From NCBI RefSeq assembly GCF_026004115.1, contig NZ_BPIM01000001.1, forward strand, positions 1,821,501 to 1,885,500: a stretch of 64,000 nt of DNA, in the 5' to 3' direction. This stretch comes from Meiothermus sp. (lineage in GTDB: Bacteria > Deinococcota > Deinococci > Deinococcales > Thermaceae). The position numbers and the translations under genes are program-made. This document shows positions 11,831 to 63,922 of this stretch, in pieces. Every line of letters begins with the position of its first letter. Positions within the stretch are counted from its first letter, which is position 1. Below the pieces are notes generated by a model. That model did no database searches, had not been told where the DNA came from, and worked only from the letters and a program-made list of their open reading frames with translations.

Positions 11831-11996
11831 ATACCAGATTCGGTTAGTTCGGCGCCGGATGGCGGCGAACTAACAGGGCCGAAGTTATCCGCGTAGCGGA
11901 GGGCGATACCGCCCCTTGGAAGGGAGTGCTCTAGGATTCAAAAAGATAGCCTCTGAAGGTCTTTGGTTTGGATGATTATCTTTTTGAATCCGGTAT
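11831..11996 (+). repeat. Palindromic dispersed element, copy 1 (166 bp)
   Basis: First of six copies. It begins ATACCAGATTCGGTTAG and ends GAATCCGGTAT. Three modules are visible: an apical hairpin (GTTAGTTCG ... CGAACTAAC, 11843-11874), a middle GC-rich block with CCGCGTAGCGG, and a second hairpin (GATTCAAAAAGATA / TATCTTTTTGAATC, 11936-11990). The copy lies in the 348-bp secY-adk gap, where no gene was seen. No coding capacity and no clear target duplication, although a TA pair flanks the shared CC...GG core. Confidence 0.9.
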
Positions 11997-23819: not shown

Positions 23820-24638
23820 TCAGACAAAAAGAGGAAGGCTCGAGGTTGGCAGCAGCCCGGCGGCTTCGCCCTGCCGGAAGAGTTCGGCCACGGCGGCCTC
23901 ACCCTCGAGCCCCACGTCTAGCGAGAACTCGTTAACGTAGGTGTGGATATGGGCCCAGATCACTTCGTCTTGTAGCTCCTGGGCGTGCTGCTTGATGTAG
24001 GCCACGGTCTCTTCTGGGTGAGCGTAGGCGTACTCCAGGCTCTGCCGCACCGCCCGATCTATGGCCCGAAGGGTCTCGGTACCCAGGTCGCGCCGGGCCA
24101 GAATGGCCCCCAGGGGCAGGGGCAGGCCGGTCAGCCCTTCCCACCACTCGCCCAGGTCCAGCACTTTTTGCAGGCCGTGCAGGTGATAGGTGAAGCGCGA
24201 CTCGTGGATGATGAGCCCGGCGTCCACCTCGCCCCTCGCCACTGATGGCATAATTTTGTCGTAGCGCATCTCCACCGGCACGAAGCCCTGGCTATGCAAG
24301 GACAGCAGCAGAAACGCAGTGGTGTTCTGGCCCGGAATTGCAATTTTTTTGTCCTGTAGCTCGCCCAGCGGATACCTGGCTACCAAGAGCGGCCCCACCC
24401 CCCGCCCTAGCGCGCCTCCGGCCCGCAGCGCCACGTACTGCTTGCGCAGGCGTCCGTAGGCCGCATAGCTGATTTTGGTTAGGGGAAGCTGGCCCTGCAA
24501 GGCCCAGCGGTTGAGGGTCTCCACGTCTTCCAGGTGCTCGGTAATGGGGAAGGGGGTGGCCACCTTGCCGTGGACCAGGGCGTAAAAAATAAAGGTGTCG
24601 TTGGGGCAAAAGGAATAGCCAAGTTGCATAGTATTCAT
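23820..24638 (-). CDS. mqnD: 1,4-dihydroxy-6-naphthoate synthase (menaquinone, futalosine route)
   Basis: 272 residues with the periplasmic-binding-protein-like fold of MqnD. The N-terminus (LGYSFCPNDTFIFYALVHGK), EDVETLNRWALQGQLPLTK, the central GLIIHESRFTYHLHGL and HTYVNEFSLDVG closely match the Thermus enzyme. It converts cyclic dehypoxanthine futalosine to the naphthoate precursor, so this organism makes menaquinone by the futalosine pathway. No other mqn gene is nearby. A second ATG three codons in (24629) is an alternative start. Confidence 0.93.
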   Translation of the reverse strand: MNTMQLGYSFCPNDTFIFYALVHGKVATPFPITEHLEDVETLNRWALQGQLPLTKISYAAYGRLRKQYVALRAGGALGRGVGPLLVARYPLGELQDKKIAIPGQNTTAFLLLSLHSQGFVPVEMRYDKIMPSVARGEVDAGLIIHESRFTYHLHGLQKVLDLGEWWEGLTGLPLPLGAILARRDLGTETLRAIDRAVRQSLEYAYAHPEETVAYIKQHAQELQDEVIWAHIHTYVNEFSLDVGLEGEAAVAELFRQGEAAGLLPTSSLPLFV

Positions 24639-24697
24639 GCTAACGGGCTATGTTTACGCTCAAAGTGAGCCTGGCTCCTGGCTGAAGGGGGCTGTGG

Positions 24698-25072
24698 CTA
24701 CTTTGCCGAGCTTTTGCGGCGGGGCTTCTTTCGGGGGGGCTGGGGGGCCTCGAGCTTCAAATCGGTCTTTTTGCCCACTAACCTGAACAGGTTGCCGAGG
24801 GTAGCCTCAAAGCCGACCCAGCCCAAAAGCGTTGCCAACACCAGGAGGCTCTTGGGAGAAAGGGTGAGCCAGTCCGAAACCAGGATGGCCGCCAGGGTGC
24901 CCCAGAAAGCGCTGCTGAGTATGCGCAGGGCCTGCTTCCAGAACTTGCTTCGCACGCTCTCAACCAAGACCTTGAGCAATGCGCCGGTAGCGGCAAAGGC
25001 GCCCATCACCCCGAAGAACTGCCAGGGCTCGAGTCTTGAGAGCAGGTCGGCGGTGGACGGGGCTGGTTCCAT
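24698..25072 (-). CDS. Small holin-like membrane protein
   Basis: 124 residues with two to three hydrophobic segments (about 18-36, 50-66 and 76-96) and a strongly basic tail (PPRKKPRRKSSAK). This layout resembles phage holins, and GAFAATGALLKVLVES recalls the first segment of lambda- and LydA-type holins, but I cannot assign a family with confidence. It diverges from a CI/LexA-like repressor gene across a 157-bp AT-rich region with palindromes, which supports a prophage-derived or stress-controlled pair. No other phage genes are near. Confidence 0.6.
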   Translation of the reverse strand: MEPAPSTADLLSRLEPWQFFGVMGAFAATGALLKVLVESVRSKFWKQALRILSSAFWGTLAAILVSDWLTLSPKSLLVLATLLGWVGFEATLGNLFRLVGKKTDLKLEAPQPPRKKPRRKSSAK

Positions 25073-25107
25073 GATTCACCTATGCTTTGAAGGAGAGGAA
25101 CGTCTAT

Positions 25108-25147
25108 GTTATGTTTATAACAAAAAATAGCCTGGTATTAGGTTATT
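25108..25147. promoter_or_regulatory. Candidate operators between holin-like and repressor genes
   Basis: Two inverted repeats lie in this AT-rich stretch: GTTAT-GTTT-ATAAC (25108-25121, perfect) and AATAGCCT-GGTATT-AGGTTATT (25126-25147, seven of eight). A -10-like TAGTAT (25205-25210) lies further on before the repressor gene. They are natural candidates for binding the divergent HTH regulator, which is inferred, not shown. Confidence 0.4.
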
Positions 25148-25229
25148 CAAAAAACGACAACTAGTCAATATGCCTAGAAAGATTGAATCTTAATCAAAAT
25201 GACTTAGTATGGTTTATGAGGAATTCTCC

Positions 25230-25940
25230 ATGCACTCCCCTCATTGGGCCACCGCCATCCGCCAGCAGCGTCAGCGCCTGGGTCTGTCGCAAGCCCAGGT
25301 GGCGCAGGCCTCGGGATTGCTCAACCAGACCGAGGTTAGCCGCCTCGAGCGCGGCCTGATTCACCCCACCCTCGACCTGGGCGCAGCTAAATTGCGGGCT
25401 TTGCTGCGGGTGCTGGGCTGGAACTGGCCCCAGTTTGCCCTGGCTACGGGGCTGGAGTTAGATTTTGCTGAAGCTGGAGCCCTAAAGAGTTTGGAACGCC
25501 TGGAAGCGGAGCTGCACTTTGCTACCTTTTCTGTTCAGGCCACCGCTTCGGCGGGCCACCAGAACACCCCAACCAGCGAGGGCCTGGTTTCGATTCCGCT
25601 GGAAGACCTCAAAGCCCTGGGGGTGCGGCCCGAAAACGTGCGGGTCTATGCCGTCAACGGCGACTGCATGGTCTCGGAGAGCGTGCGAGCCATGGGCCAG
25701 AGCATAGCACCAGGCGACCGGGTGGCGGTGGATACCGGGCGGATGCCCCGGGCTGGGGATGTGGTGGTGGCCTGGGACGGTCTCAATGAAGTGCTGCTCA
25801 TCAAGCGCTACCAGGAAGAAGGCGAGCACATTGTGTTTTATCCGGCCCGCCGGAGTGTGCCGCCGGTGGTGCGCCACCGCGACGATCCGGTCAAAATCAT
25901 AGGGCCGGTGGTGTGGCGTGGGGGGGCGTTTAGGGGATAG
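25230..25940 (+). CDS. CI/LexA-like repressor: HTH_XRE plus S24-type domain
   Basis: 236 residues from the ATG at 25230, behind TGAGG; an in-frame ATG at 25209 overlaps a -10-like box. An N-terminal HTH_XRE (RQQRQRLGLSQAQVAQASGL ... EVSRLERG) is followed by a linker and a C-terminal S24-type domain (from about residue 112). The catalytic motif is VNGDCMV, where LexA/CI proteins have GDSM or similar, so the nucleophile is Cys in place of Ser. The lysine region reads VLLIKRYQEEG. It probably represses the divergent holin-like gene; self-cleavage with Cys is uncertain. Confidence 0.85.
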   Translation: MHSPHWATAIRQQRQRLGLSQAQVAQASGLLNQTEVSRLERGLIHPTLDLGAAKLRALLRVLGWNWPQFALATGLELDFAEAGALKSLERLEAELHFATFSVQATASAGHQNTPTSEGLVSIPLEDLKALGVRPENVRVYAVNGDCMVSESVRAMGQSIAPGDRVAVDTGRMPRAGDVVVAWDGLNEVLLIKRYQEEGEHIVFYPARRSVPPVVRHRDDPVKIIGPVVWRGGAFRG

Positions 25941-28111: not shown

Positions 28112-28238
28112 ATACCAGATTCGGTTAGTTCGTCACTGTTCAGTGACGAACTAACCCGACTGAAAGGAGTGCTCTGGGATTCAAAAAGATAGCCTCTGGA
28201 TTTTTTGGTTTGAATGACTATCTTTTTGAATCCGGTAT
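28112..28238 (+). repeat. Palindromic dispersed element, copy 2 (127 bp)
   Basis: The shortest copy; it lacks the middle GC block. Its first hairpin is a perfect 16-bp palindrome (GGTTAGTTCGTCACTG, two-base loop, complement) at 28122-28155. Its tip differs wholly from other copies yet still pairs. The second hairpin is at 28179-28232. The right end stops on the last base of the upp stop codon, so the element abuts upp directly. An overlapping 97-residue frame on the - strand (27976-28269) is not considered a gene. Confidence 0.9.
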
Positions 28239-28903: not shown

Positions 28904-29002
28904 ATGACCAAGGTTATCCTCGGCATTTTGCCTATGGCCTTAGGCTTTTTGGATACCCGTTGGGATACTTCAGGCCAACTCATACCGGATTCAAAAAGAT
29001 AA
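28904..29002 (+). CDS. Short frame ended by the repeat (possible truncated gene)
   Basis: ATG at 28904 behind GAGAGAG opens a 32-codon frame: [20 protein letters not shown], then a few residues, then IPDSKR and TAA. The last six codons and the stop come from repeat copy 3. The first 15 residues are hydrophobic, as in a membrane or signal segment. It may be a real small gene, a gene cut short by the insertion, or chance. No family is recognised. Confidence 0.25.
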
Positions 29003-29215
29003 TCATCCAAACTAAAGACCCCCAGAGGCTATCTTTTTGAATCCTAGAGCACCCCCCTCCCGAACGGTCGGCGAAGAAAGCGTCTCCCTTCCAAGGGGCT
29101 TACGCCCTCCGCTACGCGTATAACTTCCAAGGGGCGGTATCGCCCTCCGCTACGCGGATAACTTCGGCCCTGTTAGTTCGCCGCCATACGGCGCCGAACT
29201 AACCGAATCTGGTAT
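28982..29215 (-). repeat. Palindromic dispersed element, copy 3 (234 bp)
   Basis: A long copy, in - orientation, with the middle block present twice (GGCGGTATCGCCCTCCGC and GGGGCTTACGCCCTCCGC sections, each next to TACGCG). Its left end (29215 side) forms the last five codons and stop of the APH-like gene (DTRFG, TAG). Its right end gives IPDSKR and TAA to the short frame at 28904. Together these make it the clearest example of the element as a gene terminus. Confidence 0.92.
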
Positions 29216-36031: not shown

Positions 36032-36308
36032 ATACCAGGTCGGTTGGTTCTTCGCCGACCGTGAGGGAGGGGTGTGTTTCAGGATTCAAAAAGATAGCCT
36101 CTGGGATTTTTTTTGATACCAGCTTTACTTGGACAGTTAGCTTTAAGTCCCAAGCTCCCTCATCCGGCGATGCCCCGGGTGCATTCAAGCGCGTTCCTAG
36201 CGCTGTTTGTAAATAGCACGGTCGGGGTGTCGCCACCTTCTCCCCCTGGGGAGAAGGCAAGGGGTTCATGTGGATTTGGTATGAAAACTATCTTTTTGAA
36301 TCTGGCAC
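36032..36308 (+). repeat. Palindromic dispersed element, copy 4 (degenerate, interrupted)
   Basis: It starts ATACCAGGTCGGTTGG and ends GAATCTGGCAC. The first hairpin has become GGTCGG...CCGACC. The second hairpin (GATTCAAAAAGATA at 36083 and TATCTTTTTGAATC at 36289) is split by a 167-bp insertion. The right end supplies PDSKR and the TAG stop to the cytochrome-like gene. This fills the gap between the TRAP permease and that gene. Confidence 0.8.
36116..36282. mobile_element. Small nested insertion in copy 4
   Basis: This 167-bp insert lies in the loop of the second hairpin of copy 4. Its own ends read ATACCAGC and TTTGGTAT, resembling the host element's ends. It contains a palindrome CCTTCTCCCC/GGGGAGAAGG near 36236-36257. 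No coding capacity is evident. No second copy was seen in the window. Confidence 0.5.
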
Positions 36309-58409: not shown

Positions 58410-58642
58410 TACCAGATTCGGTTAGTTCGGCGCCGGATGGCGCCGAACTAACAGGGCCGAAGTTATCCGCGGAGTGGAGGGCGATACCGCCCCTTGGAAG
58501 TTATCCGCGTAGCGGAGGGCGTAAGCCCCTTGGAAGGGAGACGCTTTCTTCGCCGACCGTTCGGGGGGGGTGTGCTCTAGGATTCAAAAAGATAGCCTCT
58601 GGGGGTCTTTAGTTTGAATGATTATCTTTTTGAATCCGGTAT
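58409..58642 (+). repeat. Palindromic dispersed element, copy 5 (234 bp)
   Basis: A long copy like copy 3, in + orientation. The middle block occurs twice (AGTTATCCGCGGAGTGGAGG and AGTTATCCGCGTAGCGGAGG, about 40 bp apart). Hairpin one is GTTAGTTCGGCG/CGCCGAACTAAC (58421-58451) and hairpin two GATTCAAAAAGATA/TATCTTTTTGAATC (58581-58636). It begins on the last base of the stop codon of the DUF212 gene. It makes up most of the 322-bp gap to the CAP gene. Confidence 0.92.
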
Positions 58643-63725: not shown

Positions 63726-63922
63726 ATACCGGATTCAAAAAGATAATCATTCAAACTAAAGACCCCCAGAGGCTATCTTTTTGAATCCTAGAGCACACCC
63801 CCCCCGAACGGTCGGCGAAGAAAGCGCCTCCCTTCCAAAGGGGCTTACGCCCTCCGCTACGCGGATAACTTCGGCCCGGTAAGTTCGCCGCCATACGGCG
63901 GCGAACTTACCGAATCTGGTAT
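63726..63922 (-). repeat. Palindromic dispersed element, copy 6 (197 bp)
   Basis: Starts ATACCGGATTC and ends GAATCTGGTAT, in - orientation, with one middle block. The first hairpin is a perfect 15-bp palindrome, GGTAAGTTCGCCGCC / GGCGGCGAACTTACC (63878-63911). Compared with other copies it has GTAAG and CTTAC in place of GTTAG and CTAAC, a matching double change. No gene touches it. Confidence 0.92.

Follow-up and report, generated by a model that had tools for sequence, protein, structure and literature searches.

The window analysed here, a stretch of 64,000 nucleotides from Meiothermus sp., contains a divergent pair of open reading frames: HOL (24698..25072, reverse strand), which encodes a holin-like membrane protein, and REP (25230..25940, forward strand), which encodes an HTH-S24 repressor. 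Coordinates and divergent orientation of both reading frames agree with the original prediction made from the sequence. It had also stated that no other phage genes are near, which holds for about 3 kb to either side, where only chromosomal genes are found: mqnD and a Crp-family regulator on one flank, an ABC-2 permease and a glycosyltransferase on the other.

REP has 236 residues and most likely starts at the ATG at 25230, which has GAGG upstream, rather than at 25209. Its two parts are an HTH_3 DNA-binding half (residues 1-78; 25230..25463, forward strand), which is orthologous in all 12 genomes that carry the pair, and an S24 domain (residues 106-228; 25545..25913, forward strand). Both score above the Pfam cut-offs, with 34.9 bits for HTH_3 (cut-off 23) and 39 bits for Peptidase_S24 (cut-off 23.3), and the best phage profile is phrog_4, a transcriptional repressor family. 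The S24 domain has the LexA fold; the model of the C-domain matches LexA 3jso with a Z score of 15.7 and an rmsd of 2.3 over 119 aligned residues, tied with the next structure match (Z 15.4 over 118 residues), and in a profile alignment with LexA the match runs from the cleavage site through the Lys. We also considered that REP might be the LexA master regulator of the SOS response. This was rejected, as REP reaches 26.4 bits against the TIGR00498 equivalog, for which 110.95 are required. Outside the window, the genome carries a second HTH-S24 repressor, which is of the Ser type (G000:C1:1162198-1162818).

S24 repressors carry an Ala-Gly bond 35-40 residues before the nucleophile. In REP the predicted scissile bond is Ala108-Gly109 (25551..25556, forward strand), and Lys192 (25803..25805, forward strand) takes the position of the catalytic general base. 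The nucleophile position, where the S24 family has Ser, reads Cys (Cys146, codon TGC, 25665..25667, forward strand). This residue lies in the GDCM sequence to which the original prediction had drawn attention, and it is the only cysteine of REP.

Among 50 Thermaceae genomes, 12 carry both a close REP homologue (L001-L012) and HOL, in divergent orientation every time and never one without the other, which answers the question of whether the two genes are neighbours in relatives. REP-like matches are found in 31 of the 50, most of them distant repressors. A weak match in a thirteenth genome of the family, G031 (E 9e-4), lies within a long unrelated reading frame and was left out of the count. 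A HOL search across the phylum (111 genomes) gave these 12 again. The window's genus has the pair in 9 of its 18 genomes, two other genera have it in 1 of 2 and 2 of 2, and the remaining two in 0 of 28; Meiothermus hypogaeus, M. granaticius, Calidithermus chliarophilus and C. roseus are among the carriers. Since it is absent from half of the genomes of the window's own genus (9/18), the pair is dispensable, as judged from these genomes.

HOL adjoins mqnD, a gene of menaquinone biosynthesis, in 10 of the 12 genomes, including G019, where a second contig holds the rest of HOL. The distance to mqnD is about 3 kb in G003, and in G012 mqnD is not on the contig. Among the pair-less genomes in which mqnD was found, 5 of 11 have it directly beside the ABC-2 permease that adjoins REP in the window, with no gene between. 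Because mqnD abuts the permease in these genomes, the pair can be regarded as a discrete two-gene block that is either present or absent. In the window, HOL and mqnD point in the same direction with a gap of about 60 bp (24638-24698), and transcription starting at a derepressed HOL promoter could run on into mqnD, and so into menaquinone biosynthesis, where genomes share this gene order.

Outside the pair, the window also contains copies of an interspersed palindrome about 57 bp long, with the arms GGATTCAAAAAGAT ... ATCTTTTTGAATCC. Six arm pairs are present (11934-11991, 28177-28233, 28987-29044, 36082-36303, 58580-58637 and 63731-63788; the one at 36082 spans about 220 bp) compared with 0.28 arm matches expected, and genome-wide there are 82 copies compared with 0 for the reversed pattern. 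The element is a REP- or MITE-like family of this lineage, REP being used here in the sense of the repeat. A similar sequence stands after HOL in G016.

The holin-like membrane protein

HOL has 124 residues, three long hydrophobic helices by prediction, and a basic C-terminal tail with 11 Lys or Arg residues. Lambda-type holins have three helices with the N-terminus outside and the C-terminus inside. The charge pattern of HOL fits this arrangement, and its topology is probably N-out/C-in and class I holin-like; the structure model is of low confidence (pLDDT 57.5), and a structure search with this poor model gave no matches.

The holin superfamily III profiles PF16083 (Phage_holin_3_3; LydA), phrog_126 and phrog_785 match all nine HOL family members scanned, weakly, with a best E-value of 8.9e-8; with PF16083 alone, all nine match at E-values up to 1 (best 5.5e-6). 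HOL is similar to this superfamily in size and in its three predicted helices. The window protein itself, however, reaches 22.4 bits against PF16083, which is under the curated Pfam cut-off of 28.4, and no endolysin gene is present among the four neighbours scanned at the window locus. Membership in a housekeeping family, which would have spoken against the original prediction, was found neither for HOL nor for REP.

No HOL match below E 0.2 was obtained in phage records and none in viral contigs, and a plasmid search gave no match. The sole further HOL relative in the phylum was found in Calidithermus roseus (L081, E 3.5e-6) and has no Pfam match of its own. It adjoins the last part of an SLT transglycosylase gene, a piece that matches one in the viral contig L066 at 47% over 59 residues (E 1e-16), where the protein has an SLT domain. 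A serine recombinase lies about 2 kb from the HOL relative, and the three together occupy L081 9781-13740. This locus looks like a broken, decaying phage lysis cassette. As the relative lies beside a transglycosylase remnant and near a recombinase, it points to a descent of HOL itself from a phage lysis cassette.

HOL might not kill the cell at all but be a small stress or signalling membrane protein with a mere likeness to holins, acting in envelope stress or tuning REP as its membrane partner, and we regard this as unlikely. It would agree with the sub-threshold holin match and with the lack of an endolysin gene among the neighbours scanned, and the SSAFWG motif, invariant in nine of nine aligned HOL proteins, is perhaps more than a bare pore needs. 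On the other hand, phage holins are the best-represented families for all nine members scanned, and the only relative outside the pair sits in the broken lysis cassette of L081.

Predicted operators and promoters between the genes

All 12 intergenic regions contain two 13-bp sites near the consensus ARTCAnnnTGAYT. In the window, predicted operator site 1, AGTCAATATGCCT (25163..25175), has one mismatch to the consensus, and its first six bases, TTGACT, form the putative -35 element of the HOL promoter on the reverse strand; TAACCT (25140..25145, reverse strand) at a distance of 17 bp is the putative -10 element by comparison with the consensus. The order TTGACT, 17 bp, TAnnnT is found on the HOL strand in 12 of 12 genomes, with TAnnnT read directly in 11 and, in G006, after a one-base shift of its alignment row. 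Predicted operator site 2, AATCAAAATGACT (25192..25204), lies within the spacer of the putative REP promoter, for which TTGAAT (25183..25188, forward strand) and, 16 bp from it, TAGTAT (25205..25210, forward strand) were read by eye as the -35 and -10 elements.

The two sites are 29 bp apart in the seven genomes of the window's subgroup, and in the remaining five their spacing is 31-32 bp. G003 and G012 have a weak second site with 2 mismatches. When the region of each genome was shuffled 200 times, between 7 and 23 of the shuffles (3.5-11.5%) contained two such sites at a tolerance of two mismatches. The case for the operators rests, for this reason, on the agreement of position and sequence across genomes. 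The original prediction had proposed two palindromes of the intergenic region as operators. Two perfect palindromes are indeed present, TGTTATgtttATAACA at 25107-25122 and AAGATTgAATCTT at 25179-25191, but they are little conserved: the first has a counterpart in about 4 of 11 other genomes (G020, G013, G019 and G001) and the second in 1 of 11 (G007). Their poor conservation rules them out as operators, and it is the two 13-bp sites that are conserved instead.

We also considered a wider REP regulon. A scan of the own genome with the operator consensus gave 5 sites, each counted on both strands, compared with 3 for the reversed pattern, and a tighter pattern with one mismatch gave 8 compared with 4. 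The sites outside the pair that were opened (L212, L214-L216, L226, L231, L242 and L243) showed by eye no shared lysis or repair gene, and no second place with both operator sites was seen among the matches listed by these scans. A wider regulon was rejected. Since the opened sites share no lysis or repair gene, REP probably acts locally, as far as these sites show.

Cysteine and serine forms of the repressor

The nucleophile position reads Cys in eight of the 12 pair repressors and Ser in four, while the Ala-Gly bond and the Lys are invariant in all 12, with 37-40 residues between the bond and the nucleophile. In the Cys forms, the nucleophile is the sole cysteine of the protein. Conservation of the Cys among close relatives had been proposed as a check, and it is present in eight of eight members of the window's subgroup of close relatives.

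From a Pfam search of 111 genomes covering this one phylum, 143 S24 domains, presumably all that it gave, were read; 132 have Ser, 10 Cys and one Pro at this position. In a FastTree phylogeny, from which five of the 143 rows with 70 or fewer filled columns were left out, the ten Cys domains form one clade (support 0.915), and an insertion of four residues behind the nucleophile loop is common to all ten. Two of them belong to proteins outside the pair and come from another family of the phylum. One (L210) stands beside a Phage_integrase gene; the other (L211) adjoins the first part of an integrase-like gene and a weak DUF968/RecA-dependent nuclease match. The host lineage of both is unsure, as G095, the genome that holds one of them, is listed with 9% contamination and the other domain is on a 3.2-kb contig. 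The L210 gene (400-1139) seems to lack the HTH part, and the reading frame upstream of it is broken. Viral contigs gave 141 pattern matches in the Cys-domain alignment, none of the Cys type. As the ten Cys domains form one clade and the HTH domain of L211 does not group with the HTH domains of the pair, the Cys is a property of a domain lineage and not of this locus, so far as the trees reach.

This changes the reading of the Cys in the window. The original prediction had treated it as a point substitution of Ser in this repressor; we find instead a whole S24 domain from a separate Cys clade, with Ser-type domains at 4 of the 12 loci. In six representatives, Cys and Ser pair repressors are 57-67% identical over their first 78 residues, whereas their C-domains are only 26-31% identical. 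The Ser-type C-domains of M. granaticius and Calidithermus share 62-63% identity. The 12 HTH domains of the pair form one clade (97/94), in which neither the Ser nor the Cys forms stay together: the Cys form of G001, from another genus, is placed with Calidithermus (Ser), and G006 and G012 (Ser) fall with Meiothermus (Cys). An AU test on the HTH tree, which has 81 columns and moderate supports (82-97), rejects both a single Ser clade (p-AU 0.013) and a single Cys clade (0.026). The HTH, HOL and mqnD trees each need two changes between the Cys and Ser labels. DNA-binding domain, HOL and operators are orthologous across the two forms, whereas the S24 domains are not sister to each other. Because the HTH, HOL and mqnD trees conflict with the Cys-Ser split and the C-domains are so different, at least one replacement of the protease domain, and more probably two, appears to have taken place at this locus, with the rest unchanged. 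Alternatively, an old polymorphism may have been sorted between lineages.

S24 proteins are described as Ser-Lys proteases (PMC8565304, PMC12984324), and the available text of both papers makes no mention of cysteine; that of PMC13148647 names cysteine only as a medium supplement. In the open-access literature we found no published account of a natural Cys-type S24 protein, and nothing on this pair under Meiothermus, holin and repressor. The Cys might nearly or fully disable the protease, with REP no longer cutting itself and relief coming from an antirepressor, a ligand or another protease. Ser is the nucleophile of canonical S24 repressors (PMC8565304), as it is in 132 of the 143 domains of the phylum, and with IrvR a RecA-independent member of the superfamily is known (PMC7101444). 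We nevertheless consider a disabled REP unlikely. In a dead protease, Cys, Lys and Ala-Gly should drift apart, yet they are kept together in eight of eight Cys pair repressors and in both relatives on mobile elements, down to 39-49% identity. Moreover, signal peptidase with its Ser changed to Cys is active.

A proposed domesticated repressor-holin switch

The preferred reading of the locus, to which we give about an even chance, is a domesticated phage immunity-and-lysis switch. A REP dimer would bind the two conserved 13-bp operators. Occupancy of site 1 would block the -35 element of the HOL promoter, and with site 2 lying in its own promoter, REP would keep HOL off and limit its own expression. 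Upon stress, in the simplest case when RecA forms filaments on damaged DNA, REP would then cut itself between Ala108 and Gly109 by means of the Cys146-Lys192 dyad. The cut repressor would lose its dimerisation domain and release the operators, and HOL would accumulate in the inner membrane and stop or kill the cell, presumably by pore formation. The sensor and protease domain is modular in this scheme, as Cys- and Ser-type domains are found on the same DNA-binding domain, operators and partner.

The existence of IrvR means that a RecA trigger cannot be assumed. In Deinococcus, SOS-type control exists alongside IrrE/DdrO, with homologues in Meiothermus and Calidithermus as well (PMC8072749). 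The original proposal that the Cys slows cleavage, or that redox or heat replaces RecA as the trigger, is a guess. A more specific version is tentative and on balance improbable: a natural Cys-nucleophile branch of S24 domains, spread by phages, would serve as an exchangeable sensor cassette on a fixed repressor-holin switch, with the thiol state of the single, invariant cysteine gating cleavage and integrating DNA damage with oxidation. Oxidised Cys would leave the repressor uncut, or a thiol signal would trigger it without RecA.

In function, the nearest known system is the Alp pathway of Pseudomonas aeruginosa, a chromosomal prophage-like module in which the autocleaving repressor AlpR controls a putative holin and the cell is killed on DNA damage (PMC7969949). 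There, the regulator AlpA stands between the repressor and a lysis operon of four genes, alpBCDE (PMC7969949). The window locus, in contrast, has a single holin-like gene directly under the repressor, with no antiterminator such as AlpA between the two genes, and the repressor nucleophile is Cys in 8 of 12 cases. By analogy, the pair resembles AlpR-AlpB in its working and is not a member of AlpR-AlpA-AlpBCDE. In structure, FddR of Francisella comes closest; this phage S24 repressor has been co-opted and controls its own gene together with one divergent gene as a self-contained unit (PMC13148647). FddR differs in having a Ser-Lys dyad, and its partners are described as uncharacterised proteins or DinB, not as holin-like (PMC13148647). 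With lambda CI, LexA and UmuD of the Peptidase S24 family, REP has in common the fold, the C-terminal protease, the Ala-Gly bond and the Lys; it differs in the Cys that replaces Ser and in the 4-residue insertion of the Cys clade.

The pair could also be an anti-phage module, in which infection relieves REP and HOL aborts the infection, or in which REP confers immunity to related Thermus phages. Relatives of REP in phages are distant only, and one further search with REP gave none. The DNA-binding domain of REP does group with the repressors of two viral contigs (L065 and L066), and Thermus phages carry LexA-like relatives; the patchy presence within the genus would also agree with a defence role. 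PADLOC, however, gives weak HTH matches only and none for HOL, and a fixed chromosomal place with a vertical pattern is found rather than a defence island, which makes this reading rather improbable.

It is very improbable that these phage-type genes, alone amid chromosomal genes, are a functionless remnant of a decaying prophage, since dN/dS is 0.10-0.20 for REP and 0.11-0.27 for HOL (10 pairwise comparisons per gene, covering five Cys-type genomes), the operators are conserved, and three genera carry the pair, mostly at one place. In addition, no frameshifts were seen in the 12 orthologues, one HOL (G019) being cut by contig ends. The domesticated lysis or stress module of the original prediction gains support from the conserved pair, its mostly fixed place, the purifying selection and the lack of a housekeeping family. 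The locus is a real, maintained switch of phage origin, and its action is probably local.

What is unusual is the Cys-type S24 domain and its exchange. The pair would represent a minimal two-gene domesticated lysis switch in a deep-branching group of thermophiles, and it suggests that phage repressor domains swap inside a resident chromosomal gene. A Cys clade in which Lys and scissile bond are both retained would put the Ser-Lys mechanism to a natural test. As thermophilic proteins, the repressors lend themselves to easy purification, and what the protease domain senses could be tested directly by comparing Ser and Cys forms from a single orthologous locus, such as those of M. granaticius (Ser) and M. 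hypogaeus (Cys), which have DNA-binding domain, operators and partner in common.
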